This document shows, piece by piece, positions 2,249 to 12,526 of a DNA stretch of 64,000 bases. How positions within the stretch are numbered: position 1 is the first letter of the stretch; the number at the start of each line of letters is the position of its first letter. Origin of the DNA: Bacteroides oleiciplenus YIT 12058 (GTDB lineage: Bacteria; Bacteroidota; Bacteroidia; Bacteroidales; Bacteroidaceae). The position numbers were made by a program, and so were the translations under genes. The notes below the pieces were generated by a model. The model worked only from the letters and a program-made list of their open reading frames with translations. It was not told the origin of the DNA and searched no databases. Where the stretch lies: NCBI RefSeq assembly GCF_000315485.1, contig NZ_JH992940.1, forward strand, positions 1,357,194 through 1,421,193, in the 5' to 3' direction.

Positions 2249-3481
2249 CTATCCTTTTTTCAATATGCTATTCACCACGCGCACCGAAGATACCAGTTTA
2301 GCCGTCGAAGTGAACACATCTACATTCCAGACATGCGAGGAACGGCCTTTATGCACGATAGTCGCCACCGCTCTTACCGTGTCTCCTTCGTGAGCCGAAG
2401 AAATATGGTTTCCGCTGACTTGCATGCCGACCACTATTTCATCCGGCTTGCAAAGTATCATCGAGCCCAGTCCGGCAACCGTCTCCGCCAGTGCCAGACT
2501 GGCACCTCCGTGCAGAATGCCGAAAGGTTGGCGGGTGCGTTCGTCCACCGGCATGGTGGCCTCTACCCTATCTTCGGAAGCGTAAGTATATTGTATGCCC
2601 AGATTTCCCATCAGAGCATGGCGTGCACGCTGGTTGAGTTGTTCCAAGGGTACGTCGGCAGGGCGGATTTCGGCAAGGATGGCCTTCTCTACCGCCTCAG
2701 CCACTCCGTCTTCGTCATTGGATGCGGTAATCCGGTCGGCACAAACTTTTACAGAGTCTTGTGCGTTTCCCATGGCAATGCCCAGCCCGGCGGATTGTAT
2801 CATGGAGACATCGCAAACTCCGTCGCCAATGGCGATGACTTCTTCCGAACTAACACCCAGTTTCTCAAGCAAAGCGCCCAGCGTATTGGATTTATCAATG
2901 GAACAAGGCACCACTTCGAGAAAATAGGGTTCCGAACGAAACACGTCCAGCGCTCCGTTCAATCTCCGGCGCCAGTGGTTTTCCAAGCCCACCAGCGCTT
3001 CTTCGTCATCGCTGACCAGCATGCACTTGCATGGGGCAAAGTCCACCGCTATCGAGAACTCCGTTTCCGTCACAATCTTCAGTCCATTCAGTTCTGCTTC
3101 GCGGCGTATGTGCTCATTTTCGGGTGTATCGGTGATAAGGGTATCTTCGTGATAAGTAAAGATGGCAAATCCGTTTTTGCGGGATTTCTTTTCAAGATAA
3201 GGCAACATTTCGGGGTTTATCCGGCGCTCAAACAGGAGTTCGCCGTTTTGGGCATTGATAATCTGCCCGCCGTTATAGGAGAGGATGAAGCCTCCGTAAT
3301 TGCCCAATTCCAGAGTTTTGGCAATAGGCATAAGGCCATACGTCGGTCTGCCGGAAGCCAGCACGATACGCACGCCCATCTGTTGCACCTTCAACAAGGC
3401 GGCCAGCGTGCGCTTACTGATTTTCTTTTCACTATCGAGCAGAGTTCCGTCTACATCAAGAACTAATAATTTGTATTTCAT
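2249..3481 (-). CDS. Cof-type HAD phosphatase fused to a hotdog thioesterase
   Basis: Residues 1 to about 270 form a Cof/IIB HAD-family phosphatase: motif I LDVDGTLLDS at residues 8-17 (nucleophile Asp9) and a C-terminal GDGVCDVSM motif for Mg binding. Residues from about 285 to 410 form a PaaI-type hotdog acyl-CoA thioesterase, with the characteristic GILHGGASLALAE motif. HAD members hydrolyse phosphate esters and PaaI-type hotdogs hydrolyse acyl-CoAs; the substrates here are unknown. Such thioesterases include DHNA-CoA hydrolases of menaquinone synthesis, but no men gene is nearby. It is the first gene of a two-gene operon with the DUF3352-like gene. Confidence 0.93.
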   Translation of the reverse strand: MKYKLLVLDVDGTLLDSEKKISKRTLAALLKVQQMGVRIVLASGRPTYGLMPIAKTLELGNYGGFILSYNGGQIINAQNGELLFERRINPEMLPYLEKKSRKNGFAIFTYHEDTLITDTPENEHIRREAELNGLKIVTETEFSIAVDFAPCKCMLVSDDEEALVGLENHWRRRLNGALDVFRSEPYFLEVVPCSIDKSNTLGALLEKLGVSSEEVIAIGDGVCDVSMIQSAGLGIAMGNAQDSVKVCADRITASNDEDGVAEAVEKAILAEIRPADVPLEQLNQRARHALMGNLGIQYTYASEDRVEATMPVDERTRQPFGILHGGASLALAETVAGLGSMILCKPDEIVVGMQVSGNHISSAHEGDTVRAVATIVHKGRSSHVWNVDVFTSTAKLVSSVRVVNSILKKG

Positions 3482-3507: not shown

Positions 3508-3515
3508 CAAAGGTA
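3508..3515 (-). promoter_or_regulatory. Bacteroides -7 promoter box for the HAD-thioesterase operon
   Basis: On the minus strand this reads TACCTTTG, matching the TAnnTTTG consensus, 26 nt before the start codon at 3481. It is arranged divergently from the box at 3579-3586. No clear -33 TTTG was assigned. Confidence 0.6.
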
Positions 3516-3578
3516 AAGTTATTCGAGAGAAAACACAATAAGTGACGGGGTTTTTCTTCTTTTTAGAGAATTCTTTTC

Positions 3579-3586
3579 TACCTTTG
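3579..3586 (+). promoter_or_regulatory. Bacteroides -7 promoter box for the MazG/helicase module
   Basis: TACCTTTG matches the TAnnTTTG consensus and ends 46 nt before the MazG start codon, leaving a short untranslated leader. Confidence 0.6.
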
Positions 3587-3632
3587 TCACACAATCGAGT
3601 TATAACATATTCTTCACAAAAATAGAAAGCCC

Positions 3633-3974
3633 ATGAAGACTAACAAATCCGAAATGCAAGAAATTATGGAAAGAATCGTCTCATTCACACAAGAAAGAGA
3701 TTGGGATCAATTCCATAATGGAAAAGACTTAGCCTTAGCACTTTCGATAGAAGCTTCGGAACTAAATGAGGCTTTTCTTTGGAAAAATGCCCAAGAAGTC
3801 AATATTGATAAAGTAAAAGAGGAACTGGCCGATATAATGAATTATGCATTTCTTATAGCACATAAATATGATTTAGACCTTAAAGAAATCATATTGGCAA
3901 AACTTGCAAAGAATGCGGAGAAATATCCAGTAGACAAGTCAAAAGGAAACGCTAAAAAATATACTGAACTATGA
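3633..3974 (+). CDS. MazG-like nucleotide pyrophosphohydrolase
   Basis: This 113-residue all-helical protein carries the MazG signature: E40-x-x-E43 in EASELNE and E64-x-x-D67 in EELADIMNYA, the acidic residues that bind Mg in this family. It is the single-domain, dimer-forming size, so it should hydrolyse a nucleoside triphosphate to monophosphate and pyrophosphate; the substrate is unknown. Its stop codon overlaps the next start in an ATGA arrangement (3971-3974), so it is translationally coupled to the large helicase-like protein. Its codon usage is more AT-rich than the genes on either side, consistent with horizontal acquisition. Coupling to a nuclease/helicase-like protein suggests nucleotide-pool manipulation in defence, which is inference. 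Confidence 0.92.
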   Translation: MKTNKSEMQEIMERIVSFTQERDWDQFHNGKDLALALSIEASELNEAFLWKNAQEVNIDKVKEELADIMNYAFLIAHKYDLDLKEIILAKLAKNAEKYPVDKSKGNAKKYTEL

Positions 3975-6331
3975 TTGTTTACCATGCTTCTAAAAAAGGA
4001 TTCATAAGAGATGTCTTCAACGGAAACATTGCAGATGAAATAGATCATGCATTTATGGCACATCTCGGAAGACATACTTCTCCAAACGAGGTGAGGTCAT
4101 GGAGAAATTCAATGATGTATATGTATAAGGTCATTGATACGCCAGACATACCGGACACTTCCAGCATTGCAATTGAATACCAGATACCATTAACTTCTAA
4201 ACGAGTCGATTTTATTATTTCCGGATTAGATGAGAATCAAAAAGGAAACATAGTCATCATTGAACTTAAGCAATGGGAACAGGCCAAATTATCAAGTAAG
4301 TCCGGAGTGGTTCAAACCCGGTTCCAACACGGAGAAAGCGAAGTTACCCACCCATCATATCAGGCATGGTCTTATGCTTATATGCTGACAAACTATAATG
4401 AGACAATCAGAGAACAACAAATAGAACTTTCTCCATGTGCCTTCTTGCACAATTATCAATCAGATAATATCATAGCCAATGCATGCTATCAGGAATACAT
4501 TGAAAAGGCACCTGTGTTCTTTAAATCTGATGCCCAGAAGTTACAAGATTTCATTAAGAAACGCATCAAATTCGGAGCTAAAGACGATATCATCTGGCTT
4601 ATTGATAAAGGGAAGTTGAGACCTTCCAAGCAATTAGCAGACACTTTACTCTCCATGCTACATGGCAATCAGGAGTTTGTTTTATTGGACGATCAAAAGA
4701 TTGTTTACGAAACGGCATTAGAACTGGCGCGGAATACCGCAAGCGGGAAGAAACATGTCTTAATCGTGGAAGGAGGACCCGGCACAGGTAAAAGTGTTGT
4801 GGCCGTAAATCTTCTGATACAACTGACCAAAGAAGGGTTAGTAGCCCAGTATGTATCCAAAAATGCAGCACCGAGAGATGTGTACACCGTAAAACTCAGC
4901 GGTAGTTATCAAAAGAGTTTTATCAATAATTTATTTGTTGGAAGCGGGAGCTTTATAGATGCGCCGGCAAATGTTTTTGATGCTCTAATTATTGATGAAG
5001 CCCATCGATTAAACCTTAAAAGTGGTCTATACGGCAACCTTGGCGAGAACCAGATTCTTGAAATCATACGTGCCGCTAAATTCTCTGTATTTTTTGTTGA
5101 TGACAGGCAAAGAGTACATATTAAAGACATCGGTTCCAAAAAGGCTATTGAGAAAGTTGCGGAAAGTTGTGGCGCCATTGCACATTATGCCAAATTAAGT
5201 TCTCAATTCCGTTGTAACGGGTCGGACGGATACCTCAGTTGGCTGGACAACACGTTGCAAATAAAAGAGACCGCTAACATTCACCTTTCATCAGAAGATT
5301 ATGATTTCAGAATTTTTTCTGACCCCAATGAATTACTCGACACAATAAAAGTAAAAAATAAAATAAACAATCGTGCAAGAGTCGTAGCGGGTTATTGCTG
5401 GGACTGGAATAGTAAAAAAGACCCTGATGCTTTTGACATAGTAATACCAGAGTTCAATTTCAAGAAAAGATGGAATCTCAGTTCTGATAAAAATCTCTGG
5501 ATTATCGGGAACAATTCGGTCAATGAAATCGGATGTATCCATACCTGCCAAGGATTAGAACTGGATTATATCGGGGTCATTGTTGGCAAAGATATGAGAT
5601 ATGAAAATAACAAGGTAAGCACAGATGTAACCCAGCGTTCCAAACATGACCAATCTGTAAAAGGTTTCAAGTCTCTGCTAAAAGAAAACAAGAAACAGGC
5701 TTTACAAGATGCTGATGAGATTATAAAAAACACTTATAGAACCTTAATGACAAGAGGTATGAAAGGTTGCTACGTGTATTTTTGCGATTCTGCGTTATCC
5801 CAACATTTCATGAACCAACTACAACCTCTGCATGAAGAGAGGAAAGAAATACGCATAGAACCGGAAATTAATGATGACGTCAAGTATATAGATTTCCTTC
5901 CTCTTTATTCCATAAAAGCAGCCTGCGGCTATTTTGGAGAAGGGGAAATTGTAGATGAACTTGGCTGGATAAGAGTGGAAGGCATAGGGAAGCTGAACCG
6001 AAATATGTATATAGTGCAGGCCACAGGGCATTCCATGGAACCAATCATAAATGATGGGGACTACTGTGTCTTCAGAGCTAACCCCGCAGGTAGCCGGCAA
6101 GGCAAAATAGTACTGGCACAACATTACAACTTTTATGACGCTGACTATGCAGGAGGCTATTCGATCAAAATATACCATAGTAAGAAAAAACAAGATGGGT
6201 CAGAAAATTGGACACACGAAGAAATTGTACTTGAACCCAAAAATGCTAATTATAACCCTATAATCATCAATGAAGAAAACTCTGAAGAATTTAGAATTGT
6301 CGGGGAATTCGTTGGAACAATAAAACCCTGA
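3971..6331 (+). CDS. Nuclease-like / DUF2075 helicase / S24-peptidase-like fusion protein
   Basis: The 786-residue protein has three visible parts. At about 60-105 is a PD-(D/E)xK-like pattern (E69, D80 in RVDFII, E98-x-K100 in IIELKQW). At about 255-620 is a DUF2075/SF1-type ATPase: Walker A GGPGTGKS (268-275), Walker B IIDEAHR (340-346), motif III VDDRQ (376-380), then QGLELDYIGV and YRTLMTRGMKG as late helicase motifs. From about 639 to the end is an S24/LexA-like domain with GHSMEPIINDGD (Ser688) and a possible partner Lys733 in YSIKIY. S24 domains self-cleave or act as signal peptidases; no signal or membrane segment is present, so a LexA-like regulatory or self-processing role is more likely. 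The gene overlaps the MazG gene by 4 nt. The module is AT-rich relative to its neighbours. The combination looks like a stress- or phage-responsive system; that role is inference. Confidence 0.9.
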   Translation: MIVYHASKKGFIRDVFNGNIADEIDHAFMAHLGRHTSPNEVRSWRNSMMYMYKVIDTPDIPDTSSIAIEYQIPLTSKRVDFIISGLDENQKGNIVIIELKQWEQAKLSSKSGVVQTRFQHGESEVTHPSYQAWSYAYMLTNYNETIREQQIELSPCAFLHNYQSDNIIANACYQEYIEKAPVFFKSDAQKLQDFIKKRIKFGAKDDIIWLIDKGKLRPSKQLADTLLSMLHGNQEFVLLDDQKIVYETALELARNTASGKKHVLIVEGGPGTGKSVVAVNLLIQLTKEGLVAQYVSKNAAPRDVYTVKLSGSYQKSFINNLFVGSGSFIDAPANVFDALIIDEAHRLNLKSGLYGNLGENQILEIIRAAKFSVFFVDDRQRVHIKDIGSKKAIEKVAESCGAIAHYAKLSSQFRCNGSDGYLSWLDNTLQIKETANIHLSSEDYDFRIFSDPNELLDTIKVKNKINNRARVVAGYCWDWNSKKDPDAFDIVIPEFNFKKRWNLSSDKNLWIIGNNSVNEIGCIHTCQGLELDYIGVIVGKDMRYENNKVSTDVTQRSKHDQSVKGFKSLLKENKKQALQDADEIIKNTYRTLMTRGMKGCYVYFCDSALSQHFMNQLQPLHEERKEIRIEPEINDDVKYIDFLPLYSIKAACGYFGEGEIVDELGWIRVEGIGKLNRNMYIVQATGHSMEPIINDGDYCVFRANPAGSRQGKIVLAQHYNFYDADYAGGYSIKIYHSKKKQDGSENWTHEEIVLEPKNANYNPIIINEENSEEFRIVGEFVGTIKP

Positions 6332-7178: not shown

Positions 7179-7358
7179 ATGGCCGACAACTATTTAGAAA
7201 AGCAATACGAAGCATACGAAGCAAGAAAAGCCGCTTGGGAAAAAGAACGCAAATACGGGAAGAAGCACTCCCTTGCCAAGCGCCCGAAAACGGAGGAAAA
7301 GTCAAAAGGGAGTGAAAACACACCCCCTATCACGTCCCATCCGGAAAGTACTATTTAA
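7179..7358 (+). CDS. Small charged hypothetical protein (59 aa)
   Basis: An ATG-started frame encodes 59 residues beginning MADNYLEKQYEAYEARKAAW and ending HPESTI. It is rich in Lys, Glu, Ala and Tyr, helical in the first half and disordered in the second. It lies 27 nt after the lipoprotein stop. Its last 8 nt overlap the convergent metallo-hydrolase gene. I do not recognise a named family; the composition and start look like a real small protein rather than chance. Confidence 0.65.
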   Translation: MADNYLEKQYEAYEARKAAWEKERKYGKKHSLAKRPKTEEKSKGSENTPPITSHPESTI

Positions 7359-11561: not shown

Positions 11562-11569
11562 TATATTTG
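11562..11569 (+). promoter_or_regulatory. -7 box for the VOC-GNAT gene
   Basis: TATATTTG, 15 nt before the ATG at 11585. It overlaps a possible TTG start at 11567, which argues that the ATG is the true start. Confidence 0.6.
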
Positions 11570-11584
11570 CATGAAAAAGGAATC

Positions 11585-12526
11585 ATGAGAATACATCACA
11601 TCGCCATCTGGACCTTCCGCCTGGAAGAATTAAGGAACTTCTATATCCGGTATTTTAACGGAAAGAGCAACGAAAAATATATCAACCCCAAGAAAGGTTT
11701 CGAATCATACTTCATATACTTTGACGATGGTGCATCATTAGAATTAATGAGCCGAACGGACGTACAGAACACCCCGGTAGAAGAAAACAGGTTAGGGCTC
11801 ACCCACTTTGCCCTTGCCTTTCAAAGCAAAGAAGATGTGCTCAAGACTACTGAACAACTCCGGGCAGACGGTTACATGATAGTAGGCGAACCCCGGACTT
11901 CGGGCGACGGCTATTTTGAAAGCGTGGTGCTCGATCCTGACGGAAACCGCGTAGAATGTGTCTATCGGAAAGAAGAAACTTCAGAAGAACCCGACGCCCC
12001 AATTGAAACGGAACGGTTGCTACTACGCCCCTTCGTAGAGAGCGATGCAGAGGCTCTCTTTGCCTGTTGCCGAAACCCCAACATAGGGAACAATGCGGGT
12101 TGGCAACCTCACGCAAGTCTGGAGGAATCGCGCGAAGTACTTCGTTCCGTATTCTTATCCCAGAAAGGGGTATGGGCCATTATCCTGAAAGACAACGGGC
12201 AATTGATTGGCTCCATCGGCATCATCGCCGACCCCAGACGCGAAAACCCGCAAGTACGTATGCTGGTATATTGGCTCGACGAGGCTCAATGGGGAAAAGG
12301 CTATATGACGGAGGCGGTAAAAGCGGTACTAAACTACGGCTTCGGCACGCTAAAACTAAGTCTTATCACCGCTAATTGTTACCCCCATAACGAGCGCTCT
12401 CAACAAGTATTGAAACGCCAGGGCTTTGTGCATGAGGGTACGCTTCATCAGGCCGAAGTGACTTATGACGGACATGTATATGACCATCAATGCTATTACC
12501 TGACAAATCCTGAATATCAAAAATGA
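11585..12526 (+). CDS. VOC (glyoxalase-like) domain fused to a GNAT acetyltransferase
   Basis: Residues 1 to about 127 form a vicinal-oxygen-chelate domain: it begins MRIHHIAIWTFRLEELRNFY and ends with the metal-binding-type segment VLDPDGNRVE. Residues about 138-313 form a RimJ/RimL-type GNAT N-acetyltransferase (ETERLLLRPF, then the acetyl-CoA loop region QWGKGYMTEAV). VOC domains bind metals and act in glyoxalase, dioxygenase or drug-binding roles; GNATs transfer acetyl groups. The ATG at 11585 was chosen because an upstream TTG start would lie inside the promoter box. A detoxification role is possible but unproven. Confidence 0.9.
   Translation: MRIHHIAIWTFRLEELRNFYIRYFNGKSNEKYINPKKGFESYFIYFDDGASLELMSRTDVQNTPVEENRLGLTHFALAFQSKEDVLKTTEQLRADGYMIVGEPRTSGDGYFESVVLDPDGNRVECVYRKEETSEEPDAPIETERLLLRPFVESDAEALFACCRNPNIGNNAGWQPHASLEESREVLRSVFLSQKGVWAIILKDNGQLIGSIGIIADPRRENPQVRMLVYWLDEAQWGKGYMTEAVKAVLNYGFGTLKLSLITANCYPHNERSQQVLKRQGFVHEGTLHQAEVTYDGHVYDHQCYYLTNPEYQK

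Follow-up and report, generated by a model that had tools for sequence, protein, structure and literature searches.

What might a small MazG-like nucleotide pyrophosphohydrolase do beside a single polypeptide that appears to join a nuclease, a helicase and a LexA-like S24 domain? The question is raised by positions 3579 to 6331 of a 64-kb stretch of Bacteroides oleiciplenus YIT 12058 (contig NZ_JH992940.1; hereafter the window), where an earlier note, made from the letters of the DNA, had proposed a candidate defence system. We favour, with a probability of roughly one half, a mobile two-gene anti-phage (anti-mobile-DNA) module in which a nuclease-helicase would act together with MazG, gated by S24 in the S24-bearing form. 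Beyond what the note had described, the nuclease is swappable, S24 is optional and restriction enzymes resembling types I and IV carry the same S24 domain. The features of the locus are as follows.

3579..3586, + strand: promoter −7-like box TACCTTTG, 47 bp before MazG, read from sequence
3633..3974, + strand: MazG-like gene, predicted dCTPP1-type all-alpha NTP pyrophosphohydrolase, 113 residues; E40, E43, W50, E64, D67, H28 and KYP 97-99
3971..3974, + strand: start/stop overlap of both genes, ATGA, read from sequence
3971..6331, + strand: gene of the nuclease-helicase-S24 protein, 786 residues
3971..4570, + strand: predicted PD-(D/E)xK nuclease domain, residues ~1-200; D80 at 4208, E98 at 4262, K100 at 4268; Q131
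4751..5788, + strand: Schlafen group 3 (DUF2075) helicase domain, residues 261-606; Walker A K274 at 4790, DEAH 342-345 at 4994
5885..6328, + strand: S24 (LexA/UmuD-type) domain, residues 639-786; S688 at 6032, K733 at 6167
5924..5929, + strand: putative self-cleavage site Cys652-Gly653, 35 residues before Ser688, from conservation and LexA profile alignment

Domains and invariant residues of the two proteins

Both open reading frames lie at 3633-3974 and 3971-6331, overlapping by ATGA, just as the earlier note had read them. Across 20 S24-bearing proteins from Bacteroidota and Pseudomonadota, the window protein included, all eight key residues of the large protein (D80, E98, K100, K274, D342, E343, S688 and K733) are invariant (20/20), so the domain pattern is not a matter of chance. 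Residues 261-606 form the DUF2075 ATPase, described in the note as complete, which matches PF09848 over the full profile (1-354 of 354, E 4.5e-104) and has K274, D342 and E343 in place. A Foldseek search with the full-length model retrieved superfamily 1 (SF1) helicases, including SLFN11 (7zep, E 1.5e-8, TM 0.26). Since these hits are SF1 helicases only, with low template-modelling (TM) scores and large root-mean-square deviations (r.m.s.d.), the full-model search backs the helicase part alone.

The nuclease part is predicted from its model to have a PD-(D/E)xK fold. D80, E98 and K100, the motif first suggested for the N-terminus, are also invariant in a 22-row alignment, and D80 and E98xK100 fall on strands 79-86 (81-86 in the N-terminal model) and 92-100. 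The N-terminal model (residues 1-200) has a predicted local distance difference test score (pLDDT) of 84.6 and a predicted TM score (pTM) of 0.83. VIA-align matched it at middling Z values of 8.2-7 to 1xmx (8.2) and Can2 (8q41, 8.0, r.m.s.d. 3.8 over 140), as well as to Cdn1, Card1, BsoBI, NucC, EndoMS, Cap4 and others, all of which we take to be PD-(D/E)xK nucleases; the proposed fold is thereby upheld. A Schlafen (AlbA-type) RNase core gave no Pfam match at the N-terminus up to E 1, the PD-(D/E)xK domain standing there instead.

The S24/LexA-type domain is recognized by Peptidase_S24 (PF00717) at E 9.9e-10 over residues 639-786. S688 is invariant in 20/20 S24-bearing proteins, and K733, which had been named as a possible partner, is an invariant lysine in the same set (20/20); serine and lysine are also kept across a 16-row S24 alignment spanning the two nuclease types described below. 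Gly653 is invariant as well (20/20), preceded by cysteine in 12 proteins and by alanine in eight, with cysteine in the Bacteroidota rows and alanine in the proteobacterial rows. It lies 35 residues before the serine; the corresponding distance is 34-35 in LexA, with its Ala-Gly site, and in UmuD, with its Cys-Gly site. Among PDB sequences, a profile built from the 16 S24 domains matches LexA weakly (E 0.0039 and 0.0078); in the second of these alignments the Gly653 motif falls on RVAAGE of LexA. In the model, residues 654-661, directly after the putative site, have a pLDDT under 50 and are predicted to be disordered. Because the serine, the lysine and the Cys/Ala-Gly site are kept in a LexA/UmuD-like arrangement, LexA is matched and disorder follows the site, self-cleavage of S24 before Gly653 is likely.

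The first gene was described as a single-domain MazG with four acidic residues, and these (E40, E43, E64 and D67, forming E-x2-E and E-x2-D) are indeed invariant in 26/26 operonic MazGs. The same holds for R22, D23, W24, F27, H28, W50, K90, K97-Y98-P99, K109 and Y110. Pfam matches are PF12643 (E 5.1e-16, above cut-off), PF08761 (7.2e-6) and PF03819 (0.0011, under its cut-off), and among solved structures human dCTP pyrophosphatase 1 comes closest (DCTPP1; 6sqw; phmmer E 3.4e-17, residues 8-113). Given this match and the invariant residues, the protein would be better called a dCTPP1-type enzyme, with deoxycytidine triphosphate (dCTP) or a similar molecule as its predicted substrate. DCTPP1 is reported to bind dCTP and its modified forms with high affinity and to clean those pools (PMC7162842).

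This MazG type is rare, occurring in 27/395 same-phylum genomes at 29 places. An ordinary housekeeping MazG is rejected because 17 of the 29 places are helicase modules. Outside the modules there are 12 places, of which 10 were fetched, and in three of these a nuclease gene abuts MazG with no Schlafen helicase: a GIY-YIG nuclease (L197:2578-3587) and two HNH nucleases (L199:7375-8705 and L203:5392-6619). The other fetched places have a methyltransferase, an SRAP gene (L198), genes without a name or unscanned neighbours. Since a nuclease gene abuts MazG at L197, L199 and L203, the dCTPP1-type MazG may accompany nucleases more generally.

Linkage, variants and setting of the module

The linkage of MazG to DUF2075-S24 proteins, which the earlier note had asked a neighbourhood survey to check, is strong. 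A scan of species genomes by sequence gave 34 related loci, with MazG called at E 1e-19 or better, and in 30 of them MazG stands ahead of the helicase in the same orientation. A second, independent survey covered 395 same-phylum genomes and found 18 helicase carriers at E ≤ 1e-30, and MazG precedes the helicase in 17 (adjacent in 16, with one gene between in L092; none in L093). S24 is present in 20 of the 34 loci and absent from 14; MazG accompanies all 20 S24-bearing helicases and 10 of the 14 without S24. S24 is thus an optional part of the module. The S24-less homologues are 616-648 residues long, compared with the 652 residues that the predicted cleavage would leave. We considered S24 as the cause of the MazG linkage and rejected it, since MazG is absent from the stretches searched around S24 restriction-type enzymes (8/8 loci), yet it stands with most of the S24-less helicases.

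The nuclease differs among the 18 survey carriers, being of the PD-(D/E)xK type in eight and GIY-YIG in ten. The ten GIY-YIG carriers match the window protein over the helicase and S24 parts only. Nine alignment rows cover the GIY-YIG domain; Pfam was run on five proteins, of which four are over the cut-off and L048 is just below. The tenth carrier, L047, is a broken gene that matches the GIY-YIG profile. MazG accompanies the GIY-YIG forms in 10/10 cases; S24 occurs in nine of them, where the serine, the lysine and (V/A/I)AAG-type sites are present. The nuclease is therefore swappable while MazG and the helicase stay.

An optional third gene encodes a TPR protein family of 603-672 residues. 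Of 51 loci (the 34, 16 more and a phage; some contigs are short), eight have this gene immediately ahead of MazG, and it occurs with both nuclease types; examples are L006:596-2446, L010:5864-7675, L019:5083-7056 and L056:2629-4647, with four more. The C-terminal half of the TPR protein is conserved, and five scanned proteins gave no Pfam name. Other arrangements were also seen. Tandem Schlafen group 3 helicase genes stand behind one MazG at L019:7689-11255 and L022:378-3944, both counted among the 30, where the second helicase lies between, and MazG lies downstream of the helicase, not upstream, at L164:3553-6402 and L109:11911-12850. The source genome has two further weak PF09848 matches (C5:342684-343199, L036; C6:194411-194872, L037) with no MazG nearby.

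The S24 profile was run on 395 Bacteroidota-side genomes at 1e-12 and, at 1e-8, on 274 genomes from the class to which the L014 genome belongs; distant S24 proteins (LexA, CI) fall under these thresholds, so the counts hold for this S24 subfamily only. Close relatives occur in 24 genomes over both surveys, 22 on nuclease-helicases and two cut by contig ends. The 18 among the 395 are the module's own locus, nine GIY-YIG forms, among which one gene is broken, five PLD-ResIII-DUF3427 enzymes (L151 being placed here by its grouping with L149), two HSDR_N-SWI2/SNF2 enzymes and one cut by a contig end. The six among the 274 are two profile sources, one GIY-YIG form, one PD-(D/E)xK form with MazG downstream, one cut by a contig end and one 1188-residue protein, placed with the HSDR forms by its grouping in the tree. 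In L149, the PADLOC type IV restriction model covers residues 1-948 and S24 follows at 979-1124, so that S24 reads as an added tail. Such S24-tailed type I R-like or type IV-like enzymes are encoded at L152:4539-8084, L153:1525-5067, L149:4568-7942 and similar places. Within the PD-(D/E)xK group, the helicase tree, which carries a long-branch warning, implies at least three events of S24 gain or loss. The S24 of the GIY-YIG forms groups with that of the PLD enzymes (100/99), apart from the PD-(D/E)xK forms; a reading as S24 transfer would depend on a tree join flagged as possibly false because of long branches.

The protein family is very patchy, being found in 18/395 same-phylum genomes. Among 30 same-genus loci around the upstream gene, the module follows in the window and L060 only. 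No clean empty site was found among these 30: in L063 the match to the window stops at 3515 and resumes at 7179 after 131 bp, and in L061 and L062 it ends at 3558, with other genes beyond. Microcystis phage Mwe-JY31 carries TPR-MazG-helicase, matching at 58.6% over residues 1-617, and both contigs found among IMG/VR relatives have MazG upstream of the helicase. Six of 39 plasmid records were opened. In these, MazG is adjacent upstream in L112 and L113 (archaeal), downstream in L109 and about 8 kb off, beside a TPR gene, in L110. Restriction-modification, BREX-4, ABC-three-component (ABC-3C) and DruA genes are neighbours across L110, L111, L113 and L114, with none by L112. The Marinobacter loci have a methyltransferase-PLD-helicase-S24-DUF3427 gene (type IV-like) downstream and an SMC-like gene upstream. 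Scanning 107 neighbouring proteins at 16 loci with PADLOC (E ≤ 1e-25) gave matches to 37 models, compared with one model for 95 control proteins; the 25 models listed matched one neighbour each, and only six names occur among them (PDC-S37, HEC-06, Orf5, Cas1 types, SoFic and Hhe). The suggested enrichment in defence islands holds to the extent that defence models are commoner around the module than in control stretches from the same genomes, in a small test.

Composition and nearby sequence of the window add a few details. The interval of the earlier note, from 3579, opens 54 bp before MazG at the TACCTTTG box, a candidate promoter resembling what we take to be the Bacteroides −7 element; no clear −33 TTTG was seen upstream of it. 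The AT-richness ascribed to the module is real (39-40% GC, compared with 52.5% before and 46-49% after) and is weak evidence, as other 1-kb windows of the stretch also have 38-39%. The only RNA element found in the 64-kb window is tRNA-Trp. On the minus strand, window 2249-3481 encodes a 410-residue protein whose first part reads by eye as a Cof-type HAD hydrolase and whose second part reads as a PaaI-like thioesterase; matches at E ≤ 1e-60 occur in 41/60 same-genus genomes, some to the first part only. On the plus strand, 11567-12526 is a 319-residue open reading frame that reads by eye as a glyoxalase/VOC domain and a GNAT acetyltransferase.

Proposed function and rival explanations

We favour anti-phage defence because of the patchy occurrence, the phage and plasmid carriage and the defence-rich surroundings. 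The nuclease-helicase would load on and track along invading or damaged DNA and cut it, using PD-(D/E)xK in the window and GIY-YIG in the sister form. The dCTPP1-type MazG would hydrolyse dCTP or the modified dCTPs of infection, hindering re-synthesis of the cut DNA. The S24-bearing form would be held in check, probably through S24-mediated dimerization. RecA filaments on exposed single-stranded DNA would then stimulate the cut before Gly653, and cleavage would leave a nuclease-helicase of the size found naturally without S24. Defence, DNA as the target, RecA as the trigger, activation rather than silencing and a dCTP-type substrate are all steps that we infer.

Several observations weigh against this reading. 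Foldseek on the N-terminal model gave no PD-(D/E)xK match below 1e-3, the best being EndoMS at E 0.015, and the full-length family profile had no match among PDB sequences. MazG is absent from L026, L027, L033 and L034, also by profile search, and from L093 and plasmids L111 and L114. The Ser-Lys spacing of the module S24 is 45 residues, compared with about 37 in LexA and UmuD. No defence genes were recognized by eye among the window's own neighbours, the profile scan having covered the two module proteins only. The PADLOC neighbour test is small, counts models and not members, covers 95 of 144 control proteins and is not significant alone. Lastly, the best approach to a LexA-type box (CTGT-N8-ACAG) within 300 bp upstream of 10 proteobacterial loci has two mismatches. 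With nothing within one mismatch at these 10 loci, any damage sensing would be post-translational.

The direction of the S24 switch is where the strongest rival lies. The earlier note had proposed a damage- or infection-triggered release of the nuclease/helicase, with nucleotide depletion by MazG; the folds, the motifs and the MazG coupling were borne out, while release is one of two fitting directions, silencing being equally possible. We lean to release over destruction because the predicted 652-residue product would resemble the S24-less homologues in size, and restriction alleviation fits nearly as well. There, S24 would be an off switch: the intact protein would be active, and host damage would act through RecA to trigger self-cleavage, so that the complex falls apart and the chromosome is spared. 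Damage-induced silencing is known for restriction-type enzymes, and S24 cleavage classically lowers dimerization. The presence of the same S24 on HSDR_N-SWI2/SNF2 and PLD-ResIII-DUF3427 enzymes also points this way, and the coexisting S24-less forms, with their repeated gains or losses, would suit an optional safety device. However, the cleaved product would keep the whole nuclease and helicase, like the S24-less forms, which argues against simple inactivation, and as a complete account we consider the off switch rather unlikely.

It is more doubtful still that S24 serves as a dimerization or peptide-fold domain only, without self-cleavage. The Ser-Lys spacing, above that of LexA and UmuD, and the weak match to LexA (E 0.004-0.008) are in keeping with such a domain, but the serine, the lysine and the Cys/Ala-Gly site are kept in every intact aligned S24, and all three can also be seen in those restriction-enzyme fusions whose sequences were listed in full, except for a contig-end piece. 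Slightly less probable again is an accessory SOS-type DNA-repair or replication-stress module, with the nuclease-helicase on stalled forks, MazG sanitizing the nucleotide pool and S24 timing the response: human SLFN11, which shares the helicase class by fold match, acts in replication stress, DCTPP1 has the pool-cleaning role cited above and one dCTPP1-type MazG lies near an SRAP gene (L198), but the very patchy distribution, the phage and plasmid carriage, the exchangeable nucleases, the sharing of S24 with restriction enzymes and the missing LexA-type box all speak against it.

A wider reading is tentative, and we rate it below the defence module itself. A portable self-cleaving S24 "damage switch" may have been joined repeatedly to nuclease-helicases, giving RecA-gated restriction in four S24-bearing architectures (PD-(D/E)xK-Schlafen, GIY-YIG-Schlafen, PLD-ResIII-DUF3427 and HSDR_N-SWI2/SNF2). 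The Schlafen branch would in addition have a dCTP pyrophosphatase as its obligate partner, starving repair of the cut invader, and together these would form a new immune class of DNA cutting, nucleotide removal and damage sensing. If the proposal is true, a widespread, unrecognized defence module is named. Schlafen-type helicases, antiviral in vertebrates, would be linked to nucleotide-pool enzymes in bacteria, and LexA-style proteolysis would act as a control on restriction nucleases instead of repressors. How restriction-like nucleases spare their own damaged chromosome, or wake only on infection, would become directly testable.

Comparison with known systems

Nuclease-helicase defence, S24 and MazG are each known singly. 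The open-access literature gave no report of MazG paired with a DUF2075/Schlafen helicase and S24, of this modularity or of an S24 tail on restriction enzymes; subscription journals lay mostly outside this scope, and a report elsewhere is possible. No named PADLOC system (2023 release) matches at full length, MazG matching no model and the large protein giving partial matches only. These include AbiO (1.3e-12 at residues 233-417) and Nhi (1e-9 at 234-417), phage-defence systems that likewise combine a nuclease and an SF1-type helicase in one protein. The weak matches are confined to the helicase, whereas the module has MazG, other nuclease domains and S24. The PADLOC candidate PDC-S41 is matched remotely at 5.6e-17 in the helicase part, and L020, a homologue without S24, aligns to the same model over its residues 19-300 (3.8e-15). 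However, PDC-S41 is a candidate only, its profile has 657 positions, matches to the module are partial and MazG is not known to be part of its model.

Each component has its own closest relative. The operonic MazG resembles DCTPP1 (RS21-C6) over 106 aligned residues, keeping the acidic metal ligands and aromatic residues; it differs in being bacterial, in an operon and of predicted substrate only. The module S24 shares with LexA and UmuD the Ser-Lys dyad and an Ala/Cys-Gly site about 35 residues before the serine, but it sits on a nuclease-helicase and not on a DNA-binding or polymerase subunit, and its dyad is more widely spaced (45 residues). The type IV-like PLD-ResIII-DUF3427 and type I R-subunit-like HSDR_N-SWI2/SNF2 enzymes also join a nuclease and a helicase to a C-terminal S24 of the same subfamily, whereas their nuclease and superfamily 2 (SF2) helicase domains are different and MazG is absent (8/8). 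Lastly, the helicase shares with vertebrate Schlafen group 3 proteins such as human SLFN11 the family, by Pfam name, and a Foldseek hit to 7zep at a low TM score. Schlafen proteins carry an N-terminal RNase core, and in the module the predicted PD-(D/E)xK domain or GIY-YIG takes this position.

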